A stretch of 64,000 bases of DNA from Alcaligenaceae bacterium (lineage in GTDB: Bacteria; Pseudomonadota; Gammaproteobacteria; Burkholderiales; Burkholderiaceae_B): the NCBI GenBank assembly GCA_013416395.1, contig JACCEP010000012.1, forward strand, positions 1 to 64,000, read 5' to 3'. The translations under genes and the position numbers were made by a program. How positions within the stretch are numbered: the stretch's first letter is position 1; each line of letters begins with the position of its first letter. Shown piece by piece: positions 2,805 through 36,699 of the stretch. Below the pieces are notes generated by a model. The model saw only the letters and a program-made list of their open reading frames with translations, was not told the origin of the DNA and did no database searches.

Positions 2805-3098
2805 CTACATTAGCCCATCAAGATGACGTCGTATGAAGGACATATTCAGACCGCCCCTTAGACGGTAGAGGCGCTCGCCGCGCGGGTCAGCATTCGCAAT
2901 CAGTGCATATCGGACTGTCGTTTCCATTGCCCTGAGTGCGCCGCTCAAAACGCCGACTGTACCGCTATCCGTGTCTGCTGCCCTGGCTTTCGCGGCATAA
3001 ACGGCGTCCTCCCCGCCAGGCGGGTCCCCTCCAGATATTCCACGGTCCCGTTCATTAGCCCCGGCCAGCAGTTCAAAACGGCAAGGCGACGAACTCAT
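2805..3098 (-). CDS. Possible small hypothetical protein
   Basis: This is an open frame of 97 residues with no recognised domain. The C-terminal half (SGALRAMETTVRYALIANA) reads as plausible protein, while the N-terminal half is glycine- and alanine-rich and GC-driven. There is no clear ribosome binding site and no partner gene. It may be a chance frame in mobile-element DNA. Confidence 0.25.
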   Translation of the reverse strand: MSSSPCRFELLAGANERDRGISGGDPPGGEDAVYAAKARAADTDSGTVGVLSGALRAMETTVRYALIANADPRGERLYRLRGGLNMSFIRRHLDGLM

Positions 3099-3217
3099 GG
3101 CAACGGCGGCAACCCCGCAGGAACCGTATTACTGCGAACGTCGAAAACCTACGATTAGGCTCGGAATCTTCGGCCCCGGTCAGCAGGAAAATCAACTGGC
3201 TTTTGAAGGATAGGGCT

Positions 3218-3595
3218 ATGGAACACGTTAACCACAATGCAGCTTTGGGCTACGACAACATGAACGCAGGGCTGGGCTTTCCGTCTTTTGCCTTGACCAA
3301 CAATAACGCGAATATTCGCCGTATTGGGCAACGGTTCAAATAATTACAGGCCAACCAGGAGCGCGCGCCAGTCAGCATACAGGGTACGGGGTATGCATAC
3401 GCTGAGGACGTGGAAGAGAACTGTGTGATGTTTGTGTTCGAAGGCAAGCCGGAAAAAGCTACCCGCGAGATTCTAAAACGTCATGGTTTTCGGTGGAGCC
3501 CAACCCGTGGCGCATGGGTGCGTCAACTGAACAACGCCGCCATGTGGCAGGCAAAAGCCGTCATGCAGATTTTGAACGGATCAGCCGATAACTAA
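3218..3595 (+). pseudogene. DUF3560-like plasmid/ICE protein interrupted by an ochre codon
   Basis: An ATG preceded by AAGGATAGGG opens a 41-codon frame (MEHVNHNAALGYDNM and onward) that meets TAA at 3341. The same frame then continues for 84 codons through YAYAEDVEENCVMFVFEGKP and GFRWSPTRGAWVRQLN, a hallmark of the C-terminus of DUF3560-containing proteins of conjugative elements. The stop therefore interrupts one original gene. The segment is also shorter than intact relatives, which carry a longer N-terminal domain. It lies directly upstream of ssb, the usual neighbourhood for this family. A downstream internal start could still make a 61-residue product. Confidence 0.6.
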
Positions 3596-5905: not shown

Positions 5906-7270
5906 TTAGTTAGTTGTTGTATGCAGCGTCATGATGAAAGGCACTTTCTGGCGTGGAATCAGAGCAGAGCTCAGCCCCACTACCGGCTGGACCCTTGATC
6001 CGGGCGACATCGTGGCCCATTTTCCGGTTCCGTATGTGCCGTTGACCGCTAGGGGGTCAACCTCTTTACGAAGCTTTTCTGCTTCTGCTCTTGTGCTCGT
6101 ACGCACGGCAATGCGCAGTACGACTTCGTAGGGGTCGTCCGGCGGGGCGGGTGTGGATTCCCGGTGTACGGCATTCATGCCTACATAGTCCATGCGGATT
6201 TCCTCCGCCTTCAGGTCCACCTTTTTGAAGCGTTCACGCAGAATGTCTTTGGTTAGATCAGCGCGGGCCAAGGCGCCAGGCCCAGCAAACAGCACCATTT
6301 CCTCGGCCGTGTACCCCTCAGTCAAGCCTATCAACACTTTCAGGCTGTCGGTCTTTGGGCGGCCCGCTTCATTGATGATGACTTCCACGCGGTCCTTGCC
6401 CGCCTGGCGAAACGAAACCCGGGTTAGGTCAGCAATGCAGTCCGGGCACATATAAGCGGATGGGTCCTGCACTTCGTAGATGAGCTGTTCCTTGCAAGTG
6501 GCCTCGGTAACTAGGCCGCCAGTCTCGGGCAACTTGGTGATGAGGCTGCTGCTCTCTGTGACTTCTGCGATGGGCGCGCCGACATTGGCTAGGTCGGGCA
6601 CATCTTTGTAGCCGGGATCGGCAAAGTAGCCGCCCGTAATTTGAGTGCCGCACTCCATCAGATGCCCGATAATCATGCCCCGGGCGATGGCGTGGTGGTC
6701 GTCGAAAGACCAGCCAAACTCATGCACCAGAGGGCCTAGATAAACACATGCGTCGGCGACACGGGTTGTGATGACGACATCAGCGCCCTGTGCCAAGCCT
6801 TGAACGATGCCTTCCGCACCCATATAGGTCTCGGCCGATGCAATGCGGTCGCGTGCGTGGGCAATGGGTTCGCCGGTTTCAATGAAGTTGATGTCCATAT
6901 CTGCTACAGCTTGGTGCAGCACGCCGCCCGACACGGCGGCGACCTTCAAGTCATTGATGCCCAGTTCTTGAGCCAGGCTGATCAGGCGCTCTGCGGCTGC
7001 AACGGGGTCGAGCCATCCCTGGTTTGTGATGATGCGGATACCCTTGCGCTTGCAGTCGCTCAGAATGGGCCGCATCCGTTCGACCAAATAAGGGTCGTAG
7101 GGAACCGTTGATGCGTTCTCCATCATAGCGACTTGTGCCGCGCTCATCGTCACTTCAGACATGGAATCAAAGCACAGATAATCAATGTTGCCGTGTTTGA
7201 CCAATTCCACAGCATGTTCAAAACGGTCACGCGCCCAGGCAGAGCCGCATCCTAGCTTAATGTTTTTCAT
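5906..7270 (-). CDS. AtuA-family (DUF1446) catabolic protein, large part
   Basis: This 454-residue member of the acyclic terpene utilisation AtuA family (PF07287) is recognised by its start KLGCGSAWARDRFEHAVEL, the YLCFDSMSEVTM segment and the GADVVITTRVADA motif. In Pseudomonas, atu genes serve citronellol/geranyl-CoA breakdown, but many Burkholderiales homologues sit in unrelated carboxylate clusters, so the substrate is open. Its start overlaps the stop of the upstream small gene (ATGA-type overlap). The small gene supplies the domain that forms the C-terminus of longer AtuA proteins, so the two likely act as one split protein. Confidence 0.85.
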   Translation of the reverse strand: MKNIKLGCGSAWARDRFEHAVELVKHGNIDYLCFDSMSEVTMSAAQVAMMENASTVPYDPYLVERMRPILSDCKRKGIRIITNQGWLDPVAAAERLISLAQELGINDLKVAAVSGGVLHQAVADMDINFIETGEPIAHARDRIASAETYMGAEGIVQGLAQGADVVITTRVADACVYLGPLVHEFGWSFDDHHAIARGMIIGHLMECGTQITGGYFADPGYKDVPDLANVGAPIAEVTESSSLITKLPETGGLVTEATCKEQLIYEVQDPSAYMCPDCIADLTRVSFRQAGKDRVEVIINEAGRPKTDSLKVLIGLTEGYTAEEMVLFAGPGALARADLTKDILRERFKKVDLKAEEIRMDYVGMNAVHRESTPAPPDDPYEVVLRIAVRTSTRAEAEKLRKEVDPLAVNGTYGTGKWATMSPGSRVQPVVGLSSALIPRQKVPFIMTLHTTTN

Positions 7271-14096: not shown

Positions 14097-14149
14097 TGGT
14101 GCCGGGGCCGGAATCGAACCGGCACGCCTTGCGGCGGGGGATTTTGAGT
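14097..14149 (-). repeat. Left attachment site: tRNA-Leu 3' half
   Basis: These 53 bases repeat the 3' half of the tRNA-Leu(CAA) gene at 36615-36699, from CCA to the anticodon loop, with one base missing in the acceptor arm. Identity ends abruptly at TTTTGAGT. A 3'-half tRNA copy facing an intact tRNA plus integrase 22 kb away is the standard footprint of integration by a tyrosine recombinase. The crossover is probably in the anticodon stem-loop. Confidence 0.9.
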
Positions 14150-27424: not shown

Positions 27425-29512
27425 ATGCAAGCACGCGATGAATTTCTGACCCATATTCTGATGGGACCAAAACAGTTCTTGATCCCTATCTTCCAGCGCA
27501 CGTATAGCTGGCCAGAGTCCCACTGTAATCAGCTCTACAAAGATGTATTACATGTCGGGAAAACGCCCGTTATTCCAGGCCATTTCATCGGCTCGGTGGT
27601 GCTCGCCCCTAATGAGCAGGCCAACAACGCTAGCATTCCTCAGTGGTTGGTGATTGATGGTCAGCAGCGTTTAACAACGTTCACACTGCTGATCATTGCG
27701 TTAATTCGCCGGGCTGATGAGCTTGGAATGCAGAGCGTAGGGGCCACCGCATTGGCAGCCATCAAGGACTACTACATTGCCAACGGCTTCGGTCAGGGGG
27801 AGGCGCGCTTTAAGCTGCTATTGACCCAGTACGATCGGCAAACCTTAAATAGTCTTATCGATGGCAAGACGCCCGCCAAACCAGTAAGTGATCGGGTAGT
27901 GGAAAATTTCATTTTTTTCTGCGAACAGCTTATCGACGTCGAAACGGTTGAGTTGCTTTATGCGGGTCTAAAAAAAATCAAGATCGTTGAGGTCATGCTT
28001 AATAGCCAAGATGATCCTCAGGCGATTTTCGAGAGCCTGAACTCAACGGGGCTGGATCTTAGCCAGGCCGATCTCATTCGCAACTATATCTTAATGCGCC
28101 ACAAGCATGGGGAGCAGACGCGGCTGTATCAGGACATCTGGTTTCCAATGGAACAGCTCTTTAGCAAACAGCCGCCAGAGCGATTTGACCGGTTTATGCA
28201 GGACTTTTTGACGCTCGAGACCGCCAGTAACTCCCTGATCAAGTCGCGCGATGTGTATCCGCTATTTAAGCAGTGGTTCCTGACTGAGATAAATGCATCG
28301 AGCGCTCAGGCAGCGCTCGAGCGGATGTATACATTGGCCGGCTATTATTCTGCTTACATGTTTGGTCAAGAGGAAGATAAGAGACTTGCCCGCAGTTTTA
28401 GTCGCTTGCGCAGACTCATCGAGGTGGCCGCCCCGGTGGTGATGCGATTTTACGAGGCCTATGCAAAGCACGGGGCCAGGATGGATGATTTTGTTCAGGC
28501 GGTTGATCTTTTAGAGAGCTACGTACTCCGCCGTTCGATTTGCGCTATGCAAACGCGCTCGCTAGGTAATGTGTTTGCAACCATTGCGCAACGTATTGAT
28601 TTAACAGCGCCCCTAGAGAGTCTGAAAGTGACATTCGCACGCTTTCAGTCAACCAACCGTTTTCCGTCTGATAAAGAGTTTTTCGAGCAGCTGTGCAAAG
28701 CAAACCTCTATGAGAAAAAGGGGATTTGTAAATTCGTTCTTGACCGGCTTGAAAATAACAGCAAGGAGATGATCGACACCAGCAATTTTTCCATTGAGCA
28801 TGTCATGCCTCAGAATAAGAACCTGAATGCCGACTGGAAAAGAATGCTCGGCGACGACTGGGTACAGATCCAGCAGGACTGGCTACACCGACTGGGCAAC
28901 TTGACCTTAACGGGCTACAACCCAGAGTACAAGGATTCGAGTTTCACTGTCAAAAAATCAATCGCGAATGGGTTTGATATGAGCCCATTGCGATTGAATA
29001 GATTTATGGCCACTCATAGTGATTGGACGGCTGTTCAGATGAAAAAAAGAGGGGAGCTGCTAGCTAAGCAAGCGCTTGGCCTGTGGGGGCCATTAGACAT
29101 TGATGAGGCAATCGTGCGCCAGTATAGGCTGCAGGAGATCAAGCGCCGCGGGGAAAATAGCCGCTCGACCGACCTATTGCAACCGCAGTGGCTGCCGCTT
29201 TTCGAGCAATTGAGCAGCATGATCACGCTGATGGATGATGAGGTGACATGCGTGGTATCAAAGCGCAACATCTCTTTCTATACCCTCGACCCCTTTATCC
29301 AGGTCATCGATCGCCGAAACGGCATTGGTATAGTGCTGGCGATCGACTACGAGGATCTGGCGCCGGAATGGACCTCCCTAGTCAAAGACTCGAATCTTCG
29401 TACGTTCCGCAATGTTGATTTAAGCGGGGTGCTAACGGTCTTGACGTGCGAGGCGGATGTGCATGCTATCAAGCCCATTATTCAAGCGGCGTTAGACCTA
29501 GCGCAACAGTGA
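27425..29512 (+). CDS. GmrSD-type fused DUF262-DUF1524 modification-dependent nuclease
   Basis: This is a 695-residue single-chain protein. The N-terminal DUF262 domain shows IPIFQRTYSWP (Q24, R25), VIDGQQRLTT (D78-R82), which suits NTP hydrolysis, and AIFESLNSTGLDLSQADLIR. The DUF1524 HNH-type nuclease follows (SIEHVMPQN, then HRLGNLTLTGYNPE). The last 100 residues resemble DUF5655. GmrSD/BrxU-type enzymes restrict phage DNA with modified cytosines and need no cognate methylase. It starts the defence cluster of the element and has its own promoter region. Confidence 0.88.
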   Translation: MQARDEFLTHILMGPKQFLIPIFQRTYSWPESHCNQLYKDVLHVGKTPVIPGHFIGSVVLAPNEQANNASIPQWLVIDGQQRLTTFTLLIIALIRRADELGMQSVGATALAAIKDYYIANGFGQGEARFKLLLTQYDRQTLNSLIDGKTPAKPVSDRVVENFIFFCEQLIDVETVELLYAGLKKIKIVEVMLNSQDDPQAIFESLNSTGLDLSQADLIRNYILMRHKHGEQTRLYQDIWFPMEQLFSKQPPERFDRFMQDFLTLETASNSLIKSRDVYPLFKQWFLTEINASSAQAALERMYTLAGYYSAYMFGQEEDKRLARSFSRLRRLIEVAAPVVMRFYEAYAKHGARMDDFVQAVDLLESYVLRRSICAMQTRSLGNVFATIAQRIDLTAPLESLKVTFARFQSTNRFPSDKEFFEQLCKANLYEKKGICKFVLDRLENNSKEMIDTSNFSIEHVMPQNKNLNADWKRMLGDDWVQIQQDWLHRLGNLTLTGYNPEYKDSSFTVKKSIANGFDMSPLRLNRFMATHSDWTAVQMKKRGELLAKQALGLWGPLDIDEAIVRQYRLQEIKRRGENSRSTDLLQPQWLPLFEQLSSMITLMDDEVTCVVSKRNISFYTLDPFIQVIDRRNGIGIVLAIDYEDLAPEWTSLVKDSNLRTFRNVDLSGVLTVLTCEADVHAIKPIIQAALDLAQQ

Positions 29513-29601: not shown

Positions 29602-30477
29602 ATGAGTCTGGAAGACAAGTTGTCCGGATGGACTGGCCCTTCGAGTAACACCGAACAGGATAAGCAAGATAGAACGGAGCGGATGATTCGCCAAGCGATC
29701 GATTCACATGAACCATTCAACAATTGCTCGTTAACGGTTTACGCGAAAGGTTCTTATGCCAATAATACTAATGTGCGCTCAGATAGCGATGTTGATATAA
29801 CGGTGGAGTGTACAGAAGCTCTATATTGGGAAGAGAGCGAAAAAGGAATTCATACTCCGAGCGGAACATATCAGGGAGTTTGGACCCCCGAAAAACTGAG
29901 GGCCGAGCTTCTTTCTGCCATGCAAGCAAAGTTTCCCGGGCAAGTGGATTCTACTGGATCTACCGCCATACAGATAAATTCTAATTCAGCACGCGTAGAT
30001 GCTGATGTCGTTCCATGTTTTAGTTATCGGCACTACATGAAGTATGAGTCGCGAAGTGGCACTAAAATATTCAAGACCGATGGCGGCAGCATCGTCAACT
30101 ATCCTGCCCAACAGTTGGGGAACGGAATAGCCAAGAATAACCGGACCAATTATGCGTATAAGAAGGGAGTACGGTTATTAAAGCGCACTGAAAATGCCAT
30201 GGCAGAAGATGGGAAATTTCGCGAATTACCATCCTTTTTTGTTGAGTGCTTAACCTACAACTGTCCGGACAACGTATTTGCTCACCCAACATGGACAGAA
30301 TGTCTCCGAGCGACGCTTATGCATATCTGGAATAACCTGCAAGGTGATGAGCCTAACTCTGATCGCTGGGTGGAATCAAATGAATGCTTTTATCTGTTCC
30401 ACCCCAATCAAAAATGGAATCGTGAAGATGGGCGTGAATTTGCGAAAGCGGCTTGGAACTACTTTGGATTCAAGTAA
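29602..30477 (+). CDS. CBASS CD-NTase (cGAS/DncV-like nucleotidyltransferase)
   Basis: This is a 291-residue enzyme that, on phage infection, is expected to make a cyclic oligonucleotide signal. The polymerase-beta-like active site is complete: YAKGSYANNTNV (G50-S51), the metal ligands in SDSDVDI (D63, D65), and the third acid in RVDADVVPCF (D135). The C-terminal helical domain follows. Its stop overlaps the start of the effector gene (TAATG). The product nucleotide cannot be read from sequence. No Cap2/Cap3 ancillary genes are present, so this is a minimal type I system. Confidence 0.88.
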   Translation: MSLEDKLSGWTGPSSNTEQDKQDRTERMIRQAIDSHEPFNNCSLTVYAKGSYANNTNVRSDSDVDITVECTEALYWEESEKGIHTPSGTYQGVWTPEKLRAELLSAMQAKFPGQVDSTGSTAIQINSNSARVDADVVPCFSYRHYMKYESRSGTKIFKTDGGSIVNYPAQQLGNGIAKNNRTNYAYKKGVRLLKRTENAMAEDGKFRELPSFFVECLTYNCPDNVFAHPTWTECLRATLMHIWNNLQGDEPNSDRWVESNECFYLFHPNQKWNREDGREFAKAAWNYFGFK

Positions 30478-31139
30478 TGCGTAACGCTACACTTAAGAGC
30501 TCGCTGTATCTTCTGGTCGGCATTTCAGCTGCTGCTTGGTTCTTCCTTGCTTATTTTAGCGAGCTTGATCTATCAAAGATGAAAGATTTTTTAGGGCTTA
30601 TTCCGAAAGTGGTGAGCATCGACCTTTTGGTGGTGGCATGGTTCGTTAGATGGGGATGGCGGCTTAAGATATTTAGAGGATGGCTTGTTCCATTTCCAAA
30701 TCTGAACGGAAGCTGGGTAGGTTCAATATACTCAGATTGGAAAAATCCAGAGACCGGTGAAAAGCCACCGCCCATACCTGTCATGCTAACGGTGAACCAG
30801 TCCTTCTTTCACATTAGCTGCATGATGCGCACAAGTGAAATGGAAAGCTCATCGTATGCGGAAGGATTTCTTATTGACCCTGAGCGACAAATTAAAAACC
30901 TAGCCTATTCATACACTAGCAAGCCTAGGCTAAGCTTGAGCGAACGAAGTATCACCCATGATGGAACAGCAGCTTTCAAGATTGTTGAGAATCCCAATAA
31001 AAAATTAAGCGGTAGGTATTGGACAGAAAGATTGACCAAGGGAGAAATATTGCTTCAGTATTACTCAGAAAAAATGCTAGAGGAACTTCCCGATGATTTG
31101 GATGAGCATCCTGTAACGGAACGTGGAAATCGACGCTAA
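30477..31139 (+). CDS. cap15: Cap15-like CBASS membrane effector
   Basis: This is a 220-residue protein read from MRNATLKSSLYLLVGISAAA, the ATG that overlaps the CD-NTase stop. Two N-terminal transmembrane helices (residues 8-26 and about 42-58) precede a beta-barrel domain beginning FPNLNGSWVGSIYSDW and ending LSGRYWTERLTKGEILLQYY. This is the layout of Cap15, in which the barrel binds the cyclic nucleotide and the helices disrupt the inner membrane. The recognition rests on layout and the NG.W.G / GRYWT.R..KG motifs. Confidence 0.8.
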   Translation: MRNATLKSSLYLLVGISAAAWFFLAYFSELDLSKMKDFLGLIPKVVSIDLLVVAWFVRWGWRLKIFRGWLVPFPNLNGSWVGSIYSDWKNPETGEKPPPIPVMLTVNQSFFHISCMMRTSEMESSSYAEGFLIDPERQIKNLAYSYTSKPRLSLSERSITHDGTAAFKIVENPNKKLSGRYWTERLTKGEILLQYYSEKMLEELPDDLDEHPVTERGNRR

Positions 31140-32828: not shown

Positions 32829-33216
32829 TCATCCTCCGTTGTTGTTGAGTTTGTCTAGCTTTCTGACTAAGCATTCTGCTCTAAGGTGCGTATACCGCTT
32901 CAACATCTGCATAGACTTATGCCTGCTGATCGCGGCCACCTCCTGATCTGACAACCGGGCCTCCACCAAACGGCTAACCGCTCCATGCTGCAGATCATGA
33001 AATCAAAAATCCGTCAGGCCAGCTGCTTTCGTCCATGTTTTATTAAATAGATATGATCTCCGAGCCCCATTCCGGCCCAGCTCACCAAAGAAAACCAGAT
33101 CGTTCTTCGGTGGCCGCAACGGATGATCCGACGCCACCTGAAACGTACTTGTAGCAGCTTTGGTCAGAGGTACGATACGTGGCGACGAGTTCTTGGTATT
33201 TTCAGATCTGGAAGTG
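32829..33216 (-). pseudogene. C-terminal remnant of a tyrosine integrase
   Basis: This stretch is a diverged copy of the last third of the integrase at 35415-36479, with the same [15 protein letters not shown] and [10 protein letters not shown] blocks. A TGA replaces the Arg codon in DFRFHDL, and the catalytic HDLRH has become HDLQH. The N-terminal two thirds are missing. It directly precedes the 5' end of the intron-containing tRNA-Leu gene, so it is probably the trace of an earlier element of the same family. Confidence 0.8.
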
Positions 33217-33272: not shown

Positions 33273-33589
33273 GCCCGAGTGGTGAAATTGGTAGACGCAG
33301 GGGACTCAGAACAAATTGAGCCCTTAGAGAGAAATCTTTGAGGTGAAGCCCGTCAAACTCGGCGAAGGCCCTGGATAATAATATCCGAGCTAATACCGAG
33401 CCAAGCCTGGTCTGACTGACGACAGGAAGGTGTAGAGAGCAGACGGCGGGCACCTAAGGTCGAAAGACTAAGGTGAAGGCGTGCTCCAGACCACGAACAT
33501 TGTCCTATGGACAATGGCGGCGAAAGCCGAAGTGGTAAGAAAATCCCCCGCCGCGAGGCGTGCCGGTTCGATTCCGGCCTCGGGCACCA
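33273..33589 (+). tRNA. tRNA-Leu(CAA) split by a group I intron
   Basis: The exons 33273-33307 and 33540-33589 join to a complete leucine tRNA: acceptor GCCCGAG/CTCGGGC, D arm with GGTGAAATTGGTAGAC, anticodon loop CTCAAAA, long variable arm CGCCGCGAGGCG, T arm GGTTCGATTCC and encoded CCA. The joined sequence differs from the intact tRNA-Leu(CAA) at 36615-36699 by one acceptor pair and one variable-arm base. The acceptor change is compensated on both strands (A-T for G-C), so the gene has been kept functional. The intron interrupts the anticodon between positions 34 and 35. Confidence 0.93.
33308..33539 (+). ncRNA. Group I self-splicing intron (IC3 type) in tRNA-Leu
   Basis: The 232-nt intron has the conserved core of small bacterial tRNA introns. 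P1 pairs exon GGG(A)CTC with guide GAGCCC at 33318-33323. Blocks TCAAACTCGGCGAA, CCGAGCCAAGC, GAAGGTGTAGAGAG, CACCTAAGG and GGTGAAGGC match, in order, the Azoarcus tRNA-Ile intron as I remember it. P7 is GAGCA (33437) with TGCTC (33482), a covarying version of GACTA/TAGTC there. The start ATTGAGCCC..AGAGAGAAATC also recalls cyanobacterial tRNA-Leu(UAA) introns. The last base is G, as required. There is no homing endonuclease. At the 5' splice site the usual U-G pair is C-G. Confidence 0.92.
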
Positions 33590-33795
33590 ATGAATTTTGA
33601 TGCTGAGATTTGTTTTTTGGTTAGTAATCGGCCAGAAGAGGATAGCGGCTTGAATCGATCAAATATCCGTCGAGCAATTCATCAGGTGTTCGTAAATTTT
33701 CGCTAGTAGCGCTACATTGTTTTGTATTGAGTTGTCCCACTCTTCAGTTTTTTTACTGTTTACCCCTCATCAACCACATCACTACTCGTCGAGCC

Positions 33796-34851
33796 ATGTC
33801 TTATAAATCGCTAAATCTAGAACAGGTCAATATCGGCGAGGCCATACATCAGTTTGCGCAAGAGCACGGTGGAAAGGTTGTCGGGCCGATAGAAAAACCA
33901 CGATTTGATGAGTTTCAACTATGTCTTGAAGGGCAAAAACCGGCGCTGCTGCATCTATACAAAAATAAGGATGGCAGCACAACCTTAATGCCGTCTGTAG
34001 GGCAAAATCAGGCTCTTTCGGAAGAACTCGCGAAGTATGTCGTCGCAATCACAAGTCGTCAGGACGCAGAGAGAAGACCGTTGACCCTTGGGAGTCTGCC
34101 GCAGGATACATGGGATTTCCTTCGTGAGTTTCTGGAGTCAAATGGGTGTGAAATTCAAGATCAACCTCTACAGCATGGGGTAAGAATTAGCGTTATAGGC
34201 CCTCAGCGAGACCAAGTGTTCCTGCACCGATATAACAGTGGCAAGTTTATGATGCAAGGACGGCCTATGGCGGTATATGCTATGGTTTCCTCTCTCCTTG
34301 CCGAATTGCATGAAGACAAGCGAGAGGTTCTCCAGGCCCAGCTCGAAGTAGTGCAGGTAGGTACAAACGTGGATGACCTCTATGAGGAATTGCAGCAACA
34401 CCTTCCAACTGCTGCGGCTTACTTGGGTGATACAGGGTGTGCTGTGATTGCGCCGGCTTTGGCATTAGTAAAAATTGCAGGGGCGCTCCCGGACTTTTCT
34501 TTCGTAGCCTTCCCTGCCCTCCGAGGGCTGGAGTTTTATATGAAGCAGCTGCTTGTGGACAATCAGCATCCGGTTTCAGCGAAGCAAGGTCTGGGCGCGT
34601 TCTTCACGCAGCAGGGCGCTTTGCTGTCTGGTTGTGCGGCAAAGATAGGATGCTCTTCTACGATATATGCGTTAGAAACGTCGTACGCTTTGCATGGTAA
34701 GCACCGCAATGGGCTTTTCCACGCGGATGGACAGATTCCGGTAATGACCCGTATTGTTGAAGAAAAAAGGGAGGCTACCGATATTGTTTATAACGTTCTT
34801 CGTACAATCGAAGTGACCTACGCGGCCATACCCCAAAAGACACTGCAATGA
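33796..34851 (+). CDS. rnlA: RnlA-family toxin (RNase LS)
   Basis: This is a 351-residue protein read from MSYKSLNLEQVNIGEA. RnlA is an endoribonuclease of a type II toxin-antitoxin system that degrades mRNA after phage infection shuts off the antitoxin. Two TBP-like N-terminal repeats are seen as FQLCLEGQKPALLHLYKNKD and ISVIGPQRDQVFLHRYNSGK. The C-terminal HEPN-like catalytic region has FVAFPALRGLEFYMKQLL and SYALHGKHRNGLFHAD; the R....H pair in KHRNGLFH suits the nuclease. It overlaps the antitoxin gene by four bases. Confidence 0.8.
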   Translation: MSYKSLNLEQVNIGEAIHQFAQEHGGKVVGPIEKPRFDEFQLCLEGQKPALLHLYKNKDGSTTLMPSVGQNQALSEELAKYVVAITSRQDAERRPLTLGSLPQDTWDFLREFLESNGCEIQDQPLQHGVRISVIGPQRDQVFLHRYNSGKFMMQGRPMAVYAMVSSLLAELHEDKREVLQAQLEVVQVGTNVDDLYEELQQHLPTAAAYLGDTGCAVIAPALALVKIAGALPDFSFVAFPALRGLEFYMKQLLVDNQHPVSAKQGLGAFFTQQGALLSGCAAKIGCSSTIYALETSYALHGKHRNGLFHADGQIPVMTRIVEEKREATDIVYNVLRTIEVTYAAIPQKTLQ

Positions 34852-35237
34852 AGGCGAATAGAGGCTACTCACTTCAGAAAGGCCCCTCGGAGGCCTACCC
34901 TGTTATAAGCTTCTCACTAACCAGTGAGCGGCCAGAGGTTTTTTTACCTAAAGTCGAACGGGAGCTCAAGAAAAAAGCTTTTCGGGGTACAGTCCTTGTC
35001 GATACATTAGCTTGTAATGGTATGACCTCACGCCGATTCTTCGTGGGCGAGTTCGACGGAGAGCAGTTGAGGCGATCATCTTTTAAAGTGCTTCCCCCAT
35101 CGCGTCTGGACGCGGCGACTCAGCATTTTTGCTTACGGTTTTATGTGTCGCGCTTAAGTGATCTGGAGAACTCGGTCTTGACCGCTGTGCAGCGTTTTAA
35201 GCTCAAGCGCGATGCATCTCGCGTTGGCGGCGCATGA
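34848..35237 (+). CDS. rnlB: RnlB-like antitoxin
   Basis: This is a 129-residue product encoded directly after RnlA with an ATGA overlap. RnlB family proteins are about 120-125 residues and carry a central strand like GTVLVDTLACNGMTSRRFFV followed by an FDG turn, which fits. It neutralises RnlA. Sequence similarity is moderate; the position gives most of the support. Confidence 0.7.
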   Translation: MKANRGYSLQKGPSEAYPVISFSLTSERPEVFLPKVERELKKKAFRGTVLVDTLACNGMTSRRFFVGEFDGEQLRRSSFKVLPPSRLDAATQHFCLRFYVSRLSDLENSVLTAVQRFKLKRDASRVGGA

Positions 35238-36614: not shown

Positions 36615-36699
36615 TGGTGCCCGGGGCCGGAATCGAACCGGCACGCCTTGCGGCGGGGGATTTTGAGTCCCCTGCGTCTACCAATTTCACCACCCGGGC
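36615..36699 (-). tRNA. tRNA-Leu(CAA), right attachment site
   Basis: This is a complete 85-nt leucine tRNA with encoded CCA: acceptor GCCCGGG/CCCGGGC, anticodon loop CTCAAAA giving CAA, and a class II variable arm. Its 3' half is repeated at 14097-14149, marking it as the integration target of the element. It is uninterrupted, in contrast to the intron-bearing copy at 33273. Confidence 0.97.

Follow-up and report, generated by a model that had tools for sequence, protein, structure and literature searches.

The stretch of DNA analysed here, called the window, is 64,000 nt long. At positions 33273-33589 of its forward strand lies a tRNA-Leu(CAA) gene whose exons of 35 and 50 nt, as read directly from the DNA, are interrupted after C34 by 232 nt. 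The parts of this gene, with the main helices predicted in the insert, are as follows.

33273-33307, forward strand: 5' exon of tRNA-Leu(CAA), ending in C32-U33-C34 (last letters GGGGACTC)
33307-33318, forward strand: pair at the 5' splice site, C33307-G33318, with C-G replacing U-G
33308-33539, forward strand: group I intron of 232 nt, final base G (RF00028 match, and helices on aligned relatives)
33348-33354/33445-33451, forward strand: P3 (six pairs counted)
33358-33362/33396-33400, forward strand: P4
33437-33441/33482-33486, forward strand: P7
33451-33455/33471-33475, forward strand: P8
33490-33494/33532-33536, forward strand: P9
33540-33589, forward strand: 3' exon of tRNA-Leu(CAA), from A35 to CCA (first letters AAAATCCCCC)

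An initial annotation had described a group I intron splitting a tRNA-Leu(CAA). Direct reading of the exons bears out its placing of the insertion between positions 34 and 35 and its anticodon, CAA; the insert does measure 232 nt and end in G, and the claimed near-identity of the exons to an intact tRNA-Leu(CAA) gene 3 kb away is found (33273-33311 is 95% identical to nt 1-39 of that gene). What the annotation had missed is that the split gene sits inside an island inserted into the very tRNA it named, that the same kind of gene occurs in many proteobacteria, and that in related elements it replaces the tRNA that the element splits.

The gene is not readily found by standard tools. With the settings used here, ARAGORN missed it, reporting in the window the intact tRNA-Leu(CAA) and one tRNA-Gly, and no intron family was detected in the window by Rfam at gathering level. 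When an E-value threshold was applied to 571 bases, the full Intron_gpI model (RF00028) matched at 33298-33489 with 32.7 bits (E 1.3e-6). The covariance search that the annotation had proposed as a check therefore gives a match to the full model, one that stays under the gathering score of 50. In the whole 5.08-Mb genome this is the sole RF00028 match at E <= 0.01. The predicted fold is 5.4 standard deviations more stable than that of 100 shuffles (z-score -5.38).

Covariation among relatives is a stronger test than the RF00028 gathering score. A P1-P9 structure was written by hand from the window sequence and evaluated on 58 less similar rows kept out of 105 intron genes. In this alignment 93.0% of 3467 helix cells pair, both partners have changed in 37 of the 60 pairs, and not one of the 500 shuffles reaches as high a value on any of five pairing measures; sliding the helix partners by one to three columns brings pairing down to 31-42%. 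P7 is paired in all 58 rows (100% of cells), with double changes in three of its five pairs, and P3 in 99.7% of cells, with double changes in four of six. Together with P4, P6 and P8, the P3-P7 pseudoknot makes up the core expected of a group I intron, and the last intron base, which should be G, is so in all 58 rows. In the tRNA itself, pairing of the acceptor, anticodon and T stems reaches 100.0% of 984 cells, and the anticodon stem has compensated changes across the intron. The weak points are inner P8 (unpaired in 40 of 58 rows), outer P9 (23), two P2 pairs (18 and 20), one outer P4 pair (11) and the P5a tip (26 of 47). Because the structure was derived from the window itself and the shuffles do not keep the relatedness among rows, these counts somewhat favour it. 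With that reservation, the helices named in the annotation (P1, P3 and P7) hold, and so does its assignment to group I. A place in subgroup IC3 would rest only on resemblance to known tRNA introns.

To our knowledge, a U-G pair at the 5' splice site is near-universal among group I introns, though not strictly defining. P1 forms here, yet this expectation is not met: the splice pair C33307-G33318, as the annotation had deduced, is C-G in 50 of the 58 aligned rows, all of them tRNA-Leu(CAA), and U-G in the eight tRNA-Leu(UAA) rows, which have the same insertion point after base 34. The pattern used to collect loci required GACTC and TTGAG and cannot show the frequency of other bases at this pair; 41 of the 50 C-G rows came from a pattern demanding both bases. 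The nine that are independent of it (the window and eight rows found by BLAST) are all C-G. Many natural group I introns with C-G in place of the usual pair appear to be supplied by this set.

One could see in the window gene a decaying pseudogene, that is, a spare tRNA copy left unspliced since its U-G became C-G; an intact copy does stand 3 kb away, and the RF00028 score is below threshold. We give this very little credence, since the pairing of P7, P3 and the tRNA arms is maintained throughout the alignment, 50 rows share the C-G pair, and the intron gene is the only CAA gene found in four Vallotia genomes and in the genomes, described below, in which the resident gene is split.

A group I intron occurs in the tRNA-Arg gene of Agrobacterium. 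Those of cyanobacterial and plastid tRNA-Leu(UAA) and of Azoarcus tRNA-Ile are named in PMC4033280 or PMC3984707, in the portions of these articles available. All these introns resemble that of the window in being small and ORF-less, with P1-P9 and a final G. The window type differs from them in its anticodon, CAA, in its C-G splice pair and in being carried, in many genomes, on an element that attacks the same tRNA.

The last point requires a description of the surroundings. The window gene lies, on the strand opposite to the target, inside an island of the following make-up.

36615-36699, reverse strand: intact, intron-free tRNA-Leu(CAA), the integration target (ARAGORN, Rfam)
36621-36668, reverse strand: 48-bp direct repeat, copy in the intact tRNA, starting at the anticodon loop
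35415-36479, reverse strand: tyrosine integrase (family A), beside the target tRNA (Pfam Phage_integrase, 1.2e-32)
34848-35237, forward strand: RnlB-like antitoxin, island cargo
33727-34851, forward strand: RnlA-like toxin (RNase LS, HEPN), island cargo; by eye, the ATG at 33796 is a likelier start
32854-33203, reverse strand: partial, degenerate duplicate of the integrase gene, lying upstream of the intron tRNA (80% and 74% DNA identity)
14102-14149, reverse strand: 48-bp direct repeat, distal copy, giving an island of about 14102-36668

Read in the tRNA sense, the repeat opens with ACTCAAAATCC; the point of crossover within its 48 bp is not fixed, and a crossover of family A in the anticodon loop is an inference. 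With an integrase beside a tRNA, repeats at both ends and a regenerated tRNA, the region has the features of a tRNA-targeted island. The degenerate integrase copy is perhaps a sign of element stacking. Other cargo includes a CBASS cyclase (PADLOC 1.8e-143; Pfam SMODS falls slightly short of its threshold) accompanied by a Cap15-like effector, and further a GmrSD protein, a relaxase of MobA/MobL type, TrbL and an N-6 methylase. The CBASS-like cyclase and Cap15-like effector adjoin the GmrSD protein (29602-31139 and 27425-29512 of the window).

Six related islands (L041-L046; L and G numbers are our labels for loci and genomes) likewise combine an intact tRNA-Leu(CAA) with an intron tRNA on the opposite strand and with an integrase that is 82-95% identical to that of the window; in L043 little of the integrase matches beyond the first 185 aa. 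Their cargo differs, and the genes between integrase and intron tRNA vary from island to island. This variation bears on the idea that the intron tRNA belongs to the RnlA-RnlB module, for instance as target, decoy or sensor, which draws on the position of RnlA (138-207 bp downstream of the intron tRNA, on the same strand) and on the richness of the region in defence genes. Neither protein was found by tblastn at 1e-5 in any of 20 related intron-tRNA loci, and we consider such a link highly improbable. A role with the RnlA-RnlB or CBASS genes was dropped, these being cargo of the window island only among the loci compared.

Across the taxonomic family of the window, a family A integrase (match at 1e-90) is present in 47 genomes, 11 of which were found to have an intron-CAA gene; none was detected in the remaining 36 of the 47, where misses are possible because two candidates were scored per genome. 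Family A regenerates its target tRNA and needs no substitute.

Elements of a second kind, family B, split the resident gene. Nucleotides 1-39 of the resident tRNA-Leu(CAA), ending in CTCAAAA, continue into ATAGGGACTT or similar sequence; 191-201 bp after CTC, at the left end of the element, comes an entire tRNA-Leu(CAA) gene with its intron (about 190-260 bp inside the element across the different types). The order resident 5' half, AAAA, foreign DNA, intron gene was read in 25 records. Counting each place once, and leaving out four duplicates and an odd locus with a 12-nt spacer (L122), split gene and intron gene occur together in 20 genomes, with three different left-end sequences and spacers of 191-201 nt (16 genomes), 255-257 nt (three) and 214 nt (one). 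The script behind the 25 records required AAAA at the junction; a search without this requirement led to the same junctions in 18 of the 73 records among the matches listed.

The two resident halves, nt 1-39 and nt 33-85, overlap in CTCAAAA, the 7-nt anticodon loop. Nucleotides 33-85 lie further along the same contig in the same orientation, at 14-77 kb in G074, G079, G098, G197 and G205, at 28 kb in G085, at 67 kb in Variovorax UMC13 and at 50 kb in Caballeronia ptereochthonis; where this half was seen elsewhere, it was on another contig. Family B thus does not conform to the rule that an island regenerates the tRNA it splits: a 5' half followed by foreign DNA stands at the left end, and the displaced half at the right. 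An integrase gene with Phage_integrase and Arm-DNA-bind_3 domains (62-100% identity) is seen to adjoin the displaced half in all 13 B right ends examined, from Alcaligenaceae, Comamonadaceae and Burkholderiaceae; the G204 copy is interrupted by an internal stop. Right ends L064 and L067 were excluded from this comparison as family A junctions. G197 has a right end of the family A type, which makes that locus composite. The family B element of G098 carries (L062, 1465-6119) a DndB gene (Pfam 3.5e-132), after which come genes whose products have PAPS reductase and AAA domains, a group resembling a phosphorothioation cluster. In L122, a gammaproteobacterial contig, a tRNA 5' half stands 12 nt ahead of an intron tRNA-Leu(CAA) at 6197-6516, a different type of junction.

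The commonest B left end, searched as an exact pattern, is present in 12 of 268 genomes of the window's taxonomic family, eight times in a split tRNA and four times at other CTCAAAA sites; the intron gene follows it in 10 of the 12. The two exceptions both run out of sequence. G159 has a split gene and neither an intact CAA gene nor an intron gene was found there, in a draft of about 440 contigs whose contig ends 130 nt past the junction; in G230 (contig C12) the left end lies at another site, and no intron gene is present in the 252 nt up to the contig end. In G204 a B element lies at a CTCAAAA remnant, both intron genes are whole, and the resident promoter now stands ahead of an intron gene. 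A promoter scan gave no match on the strand of the window's intron gene. In L056 the sole match precedes the split 5' half, so that the substitute gene may use the resident promoter.

We asked what other CAA genes these genomes possess. The tRNA-Leu matches of 13 split genomes, read one gene at a time, include no intact CAA gene. Besides the halves and the intron genes, G074, G079, G085, G094 and G098 have UAA and CAG genes and no intact CAA; G205 has UAA as its other full-length match and G197 no full-length match, neither with an intact CAA; full-length matches in Acidovorax soli, Comamonas badia, Variovorax UMC13, a Polaromonas MAG and C. ptereochthonis are UAA, UAG or GAG only; and Burkholderia sp. 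4M9327F10 has no full-length tRNA-Leu match. No intact CAA gene was found in G204, which has a UAA gene, or in G230, which has UAG and CAG genes. In four Vallotia genomes (1.1-1.2 Mb) and in Mycetohabitans B8 the intron gene is the only one found besides partial matches, and no integrase or tRNA half was seen in the 8 kb around it. Where the resident gene is unsplit (G176, G186, G101), an intact CAA gene is kept. G075 and G128 have a B integrase and an intact CAA gene, and no intron-CAA gene was found in them. The only tRNA-Leu(CAA) gene of a genome can escape a routine tRNA finder. tRNA-Leu(UAA) may also read UUG, so a CAA gene need not be essential.

These sequences show the element supplying a substitute for the tRNA that it splits, and the intron tRNA travels with the element. 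In the window's taxonomic family an intron-CAA gene is present in 18 of the 56 genomes that have an A or B integrase, against 2 of the 212 others (Fisher 7e-12). B integrases were counted from 67% identity, a bound set at a gap (67 to 63%) after the list had been seen, and weaker matches remain unplaced; the intron-CAA gene was scored on two candidates per genome, and genes may be missed. The substitute of G085 reads GTGGAATT and GAGGACTC at the places where the split gene of the same genome reads GTGAAATT and GGGGACTC, and it resembles genes of Lysobacteraceae and Rhodanobacter; G079 and Comamonadaceae CD01 have identical introns.

tRNA genes are often carried by mobile elements, and the intron gene might be ordinary cargo: a tRNA gene that happens to contain an old group I intron, with replacement of the split gene and any shielding as mere by-products. 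Such a view is compatible with the optional nature of the gene in family A (11 of 47 genomes) and with the related intron carried by the tRNA-Leu(UAA) gene of all 43 genomes of one genus, in which elements were not looked for. It fits poorly with the fixed place of the gene at the left end of family B (10 of 12, the other two stretches ending within 252 nt) and with the lack of another CAA gene in the 13 split genomes checked. We think it unlikely, while allowing it considerably more room than the pseudogene or a link to RnlA-RnlB.

The explanation that we favour, and hold to be probable, is that the gene is an element-borne replacement tRNA-Leu(CAA), hidden from the integrase by its intron and present in the window as an insurance copy. 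According to this model, the family B tyrosine integrase would cross over in the 7-bp anticodon loop CTCAAAA, splitting the resident gene, and the element would deliver a complete substitute gene at its other end. The intron parts the core 3+4, between CTC and AAAA, leaving no intact core. An integrase that needs CTCAAAA between two stem arms would meet CTC and AAAA some 230 nt apart; the substitute is for this reason inferred to be invisible to the B integrase and to other integrases that use the loop. Splicing of the RNA, which we infer to take place in vivo, would rebuild the tRNA. For family A islands such as that of the window, the intron gene would be an additional copy, so that the cell does not lose tRNA-Leu(CAA) should a further element split the target, a role likewise inferred. 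What the sequences themselves show is the intron structure, the C-G pair, the split genes, the substitute gene and the integrase next to the displaced half. In G094, judging from two contigs, the tRNA targeted by a family A island has apparently been split by family B, so an island like the window's could conceivably gain from a shielded spare.

Whether the intron acts as a shield in its own right, so that the host's tRNA-Leu(CAA) is split and replaced by an integrase-invisible copy, the host is tied to the element and the site is closed to rivals, is a matter on which we lean only slightly to the affirmative. The match between intron position and integrase core may be inherited rather than selected, since a review (PMC4033280, available in part) puts most bacterial tRNA group I introns by the anticodon. 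If the shield reading is true, any loss of the element other than by exact excision would lose the tRNA, bacterial tRNA introns would gain a function, and the old idea that tRNA introns protect against integration would become testable in easy bacteria. Elements that target tRNA genes would also have a second way to spare the host, by replacement and not by regeneration.

Several components of this model have precedents, given here from the parts of the sources available. In the Islander collection (PMC4383910), island sequences restore the split tRNA gene, and 2083 islands have an anticodon-centred site; like family B, these have a tyrosine integrase, an anticodon-loop crossover and a displaced tRNA half at the far end, whereas family B does not restore the split gene and supplies an entire substitute gene with an intron. 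In Archaea, tRNA genes that are split or contain introns have been viewed as a protection against integration (Randau and Soell, cited in PMC4390854 and PMC4033280). There too the interruption removes the integration site; that idea concerns host genes, however, while here a ribozyme intron is on the element itself. PMC8371274, which has the 7-bp loop as overlap, cites Sugahara 2012 for the transfer of introns through an attP that contains one. In that system, too, a tRNA with an intron is brought in at the attachment end of a mobile element, but the system is archaeal, and in family B a full gene lies 190-260 bp inside the element end. The review places most tRNA introns at 37/38 (PMC4033280); PMC9897764 is also among the prior work. 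In the open-licence PMC literature we recognised no paper on group I introns in tRNA-Leu(CAA) or on such replacement, most subscription papers and all bioRxiv preprints being outside this scope.

The distribution of the gene was surveyed with a pattern consisting of the CAA 5' exon followed by the P1 guide, which matched at least 116 genome stretches and seven viral ones. Among the matches listed (123 loci), both splice sites could be read in at least 73 further CAA loci; seven more have an intron-like 5' junction with no 3' site by rule or inside the stretch (L078, L100, L113, L155, L166, L172, L176), and the remaining 43 are intron-free tRNA genes or chance matches. Both splice sites were present in none of the seven viral loci. 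The intron-CAA genes among these listed matches belong to Burkholderiales, Lysobacterales, Steroidobacteraceae and other Pseudomonadota, apart from one Mycobacterium MAG, which we take to be misbinned. In the window's taxonomic family, 83 full-length intron-gene matches comprise 22 CAA genes in 20 genomes and 61 UAA genes; a truncated CAA intron gene in G185 was left out of the 20. All 43 genomes of genus g2 (G001-G043) have a full-length match, always tRNA-Leu(UAA) with U at the splice site, and these genes are apparently resident.

In a tree of the introns, 11 UAA introns of the window's taxonomic family cluster in a single clade (99/99), separate from the CAA introns, and the alphaproteobacterial CAA intron L088 groups with the UAA intron of an enterobacterial plasmid, L006. 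Well-supported branches require at least two changes of anticodon label, with the bootstrap not yet settled.

Related genes were also seen on plasmids and in a phage. Near aac(3)-IId, two enterobacterial plasmids (L006 and L009, one of them pCTX-M3) have a tRNA-Leu(UAA) gene that contains a related group I intron. Plasmid records matching the query number 1280, and among 40 of them listed, 25 cover just 24-33% of it. The Bradyrhizobium plasmid pUSDA76 (L008, about 2900-3250) has an intron tRNA-Leu, by eye without a 5' exon, just before the gene for a TrlF-family ATPase, an arrangement that hints at a link to ATPases of this type; the terms tRNA and group I intron are absent from the available part of the TrlF paper (PMC7554251). 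Finally, an uncultured 595-kb phage (L010, 1850-2154) contains the 3' portion of a related intron together with the 3' exon of a tRNA-Leu, and the DNA ahead of that intron reads by eye as an HNH-like endonuclease.
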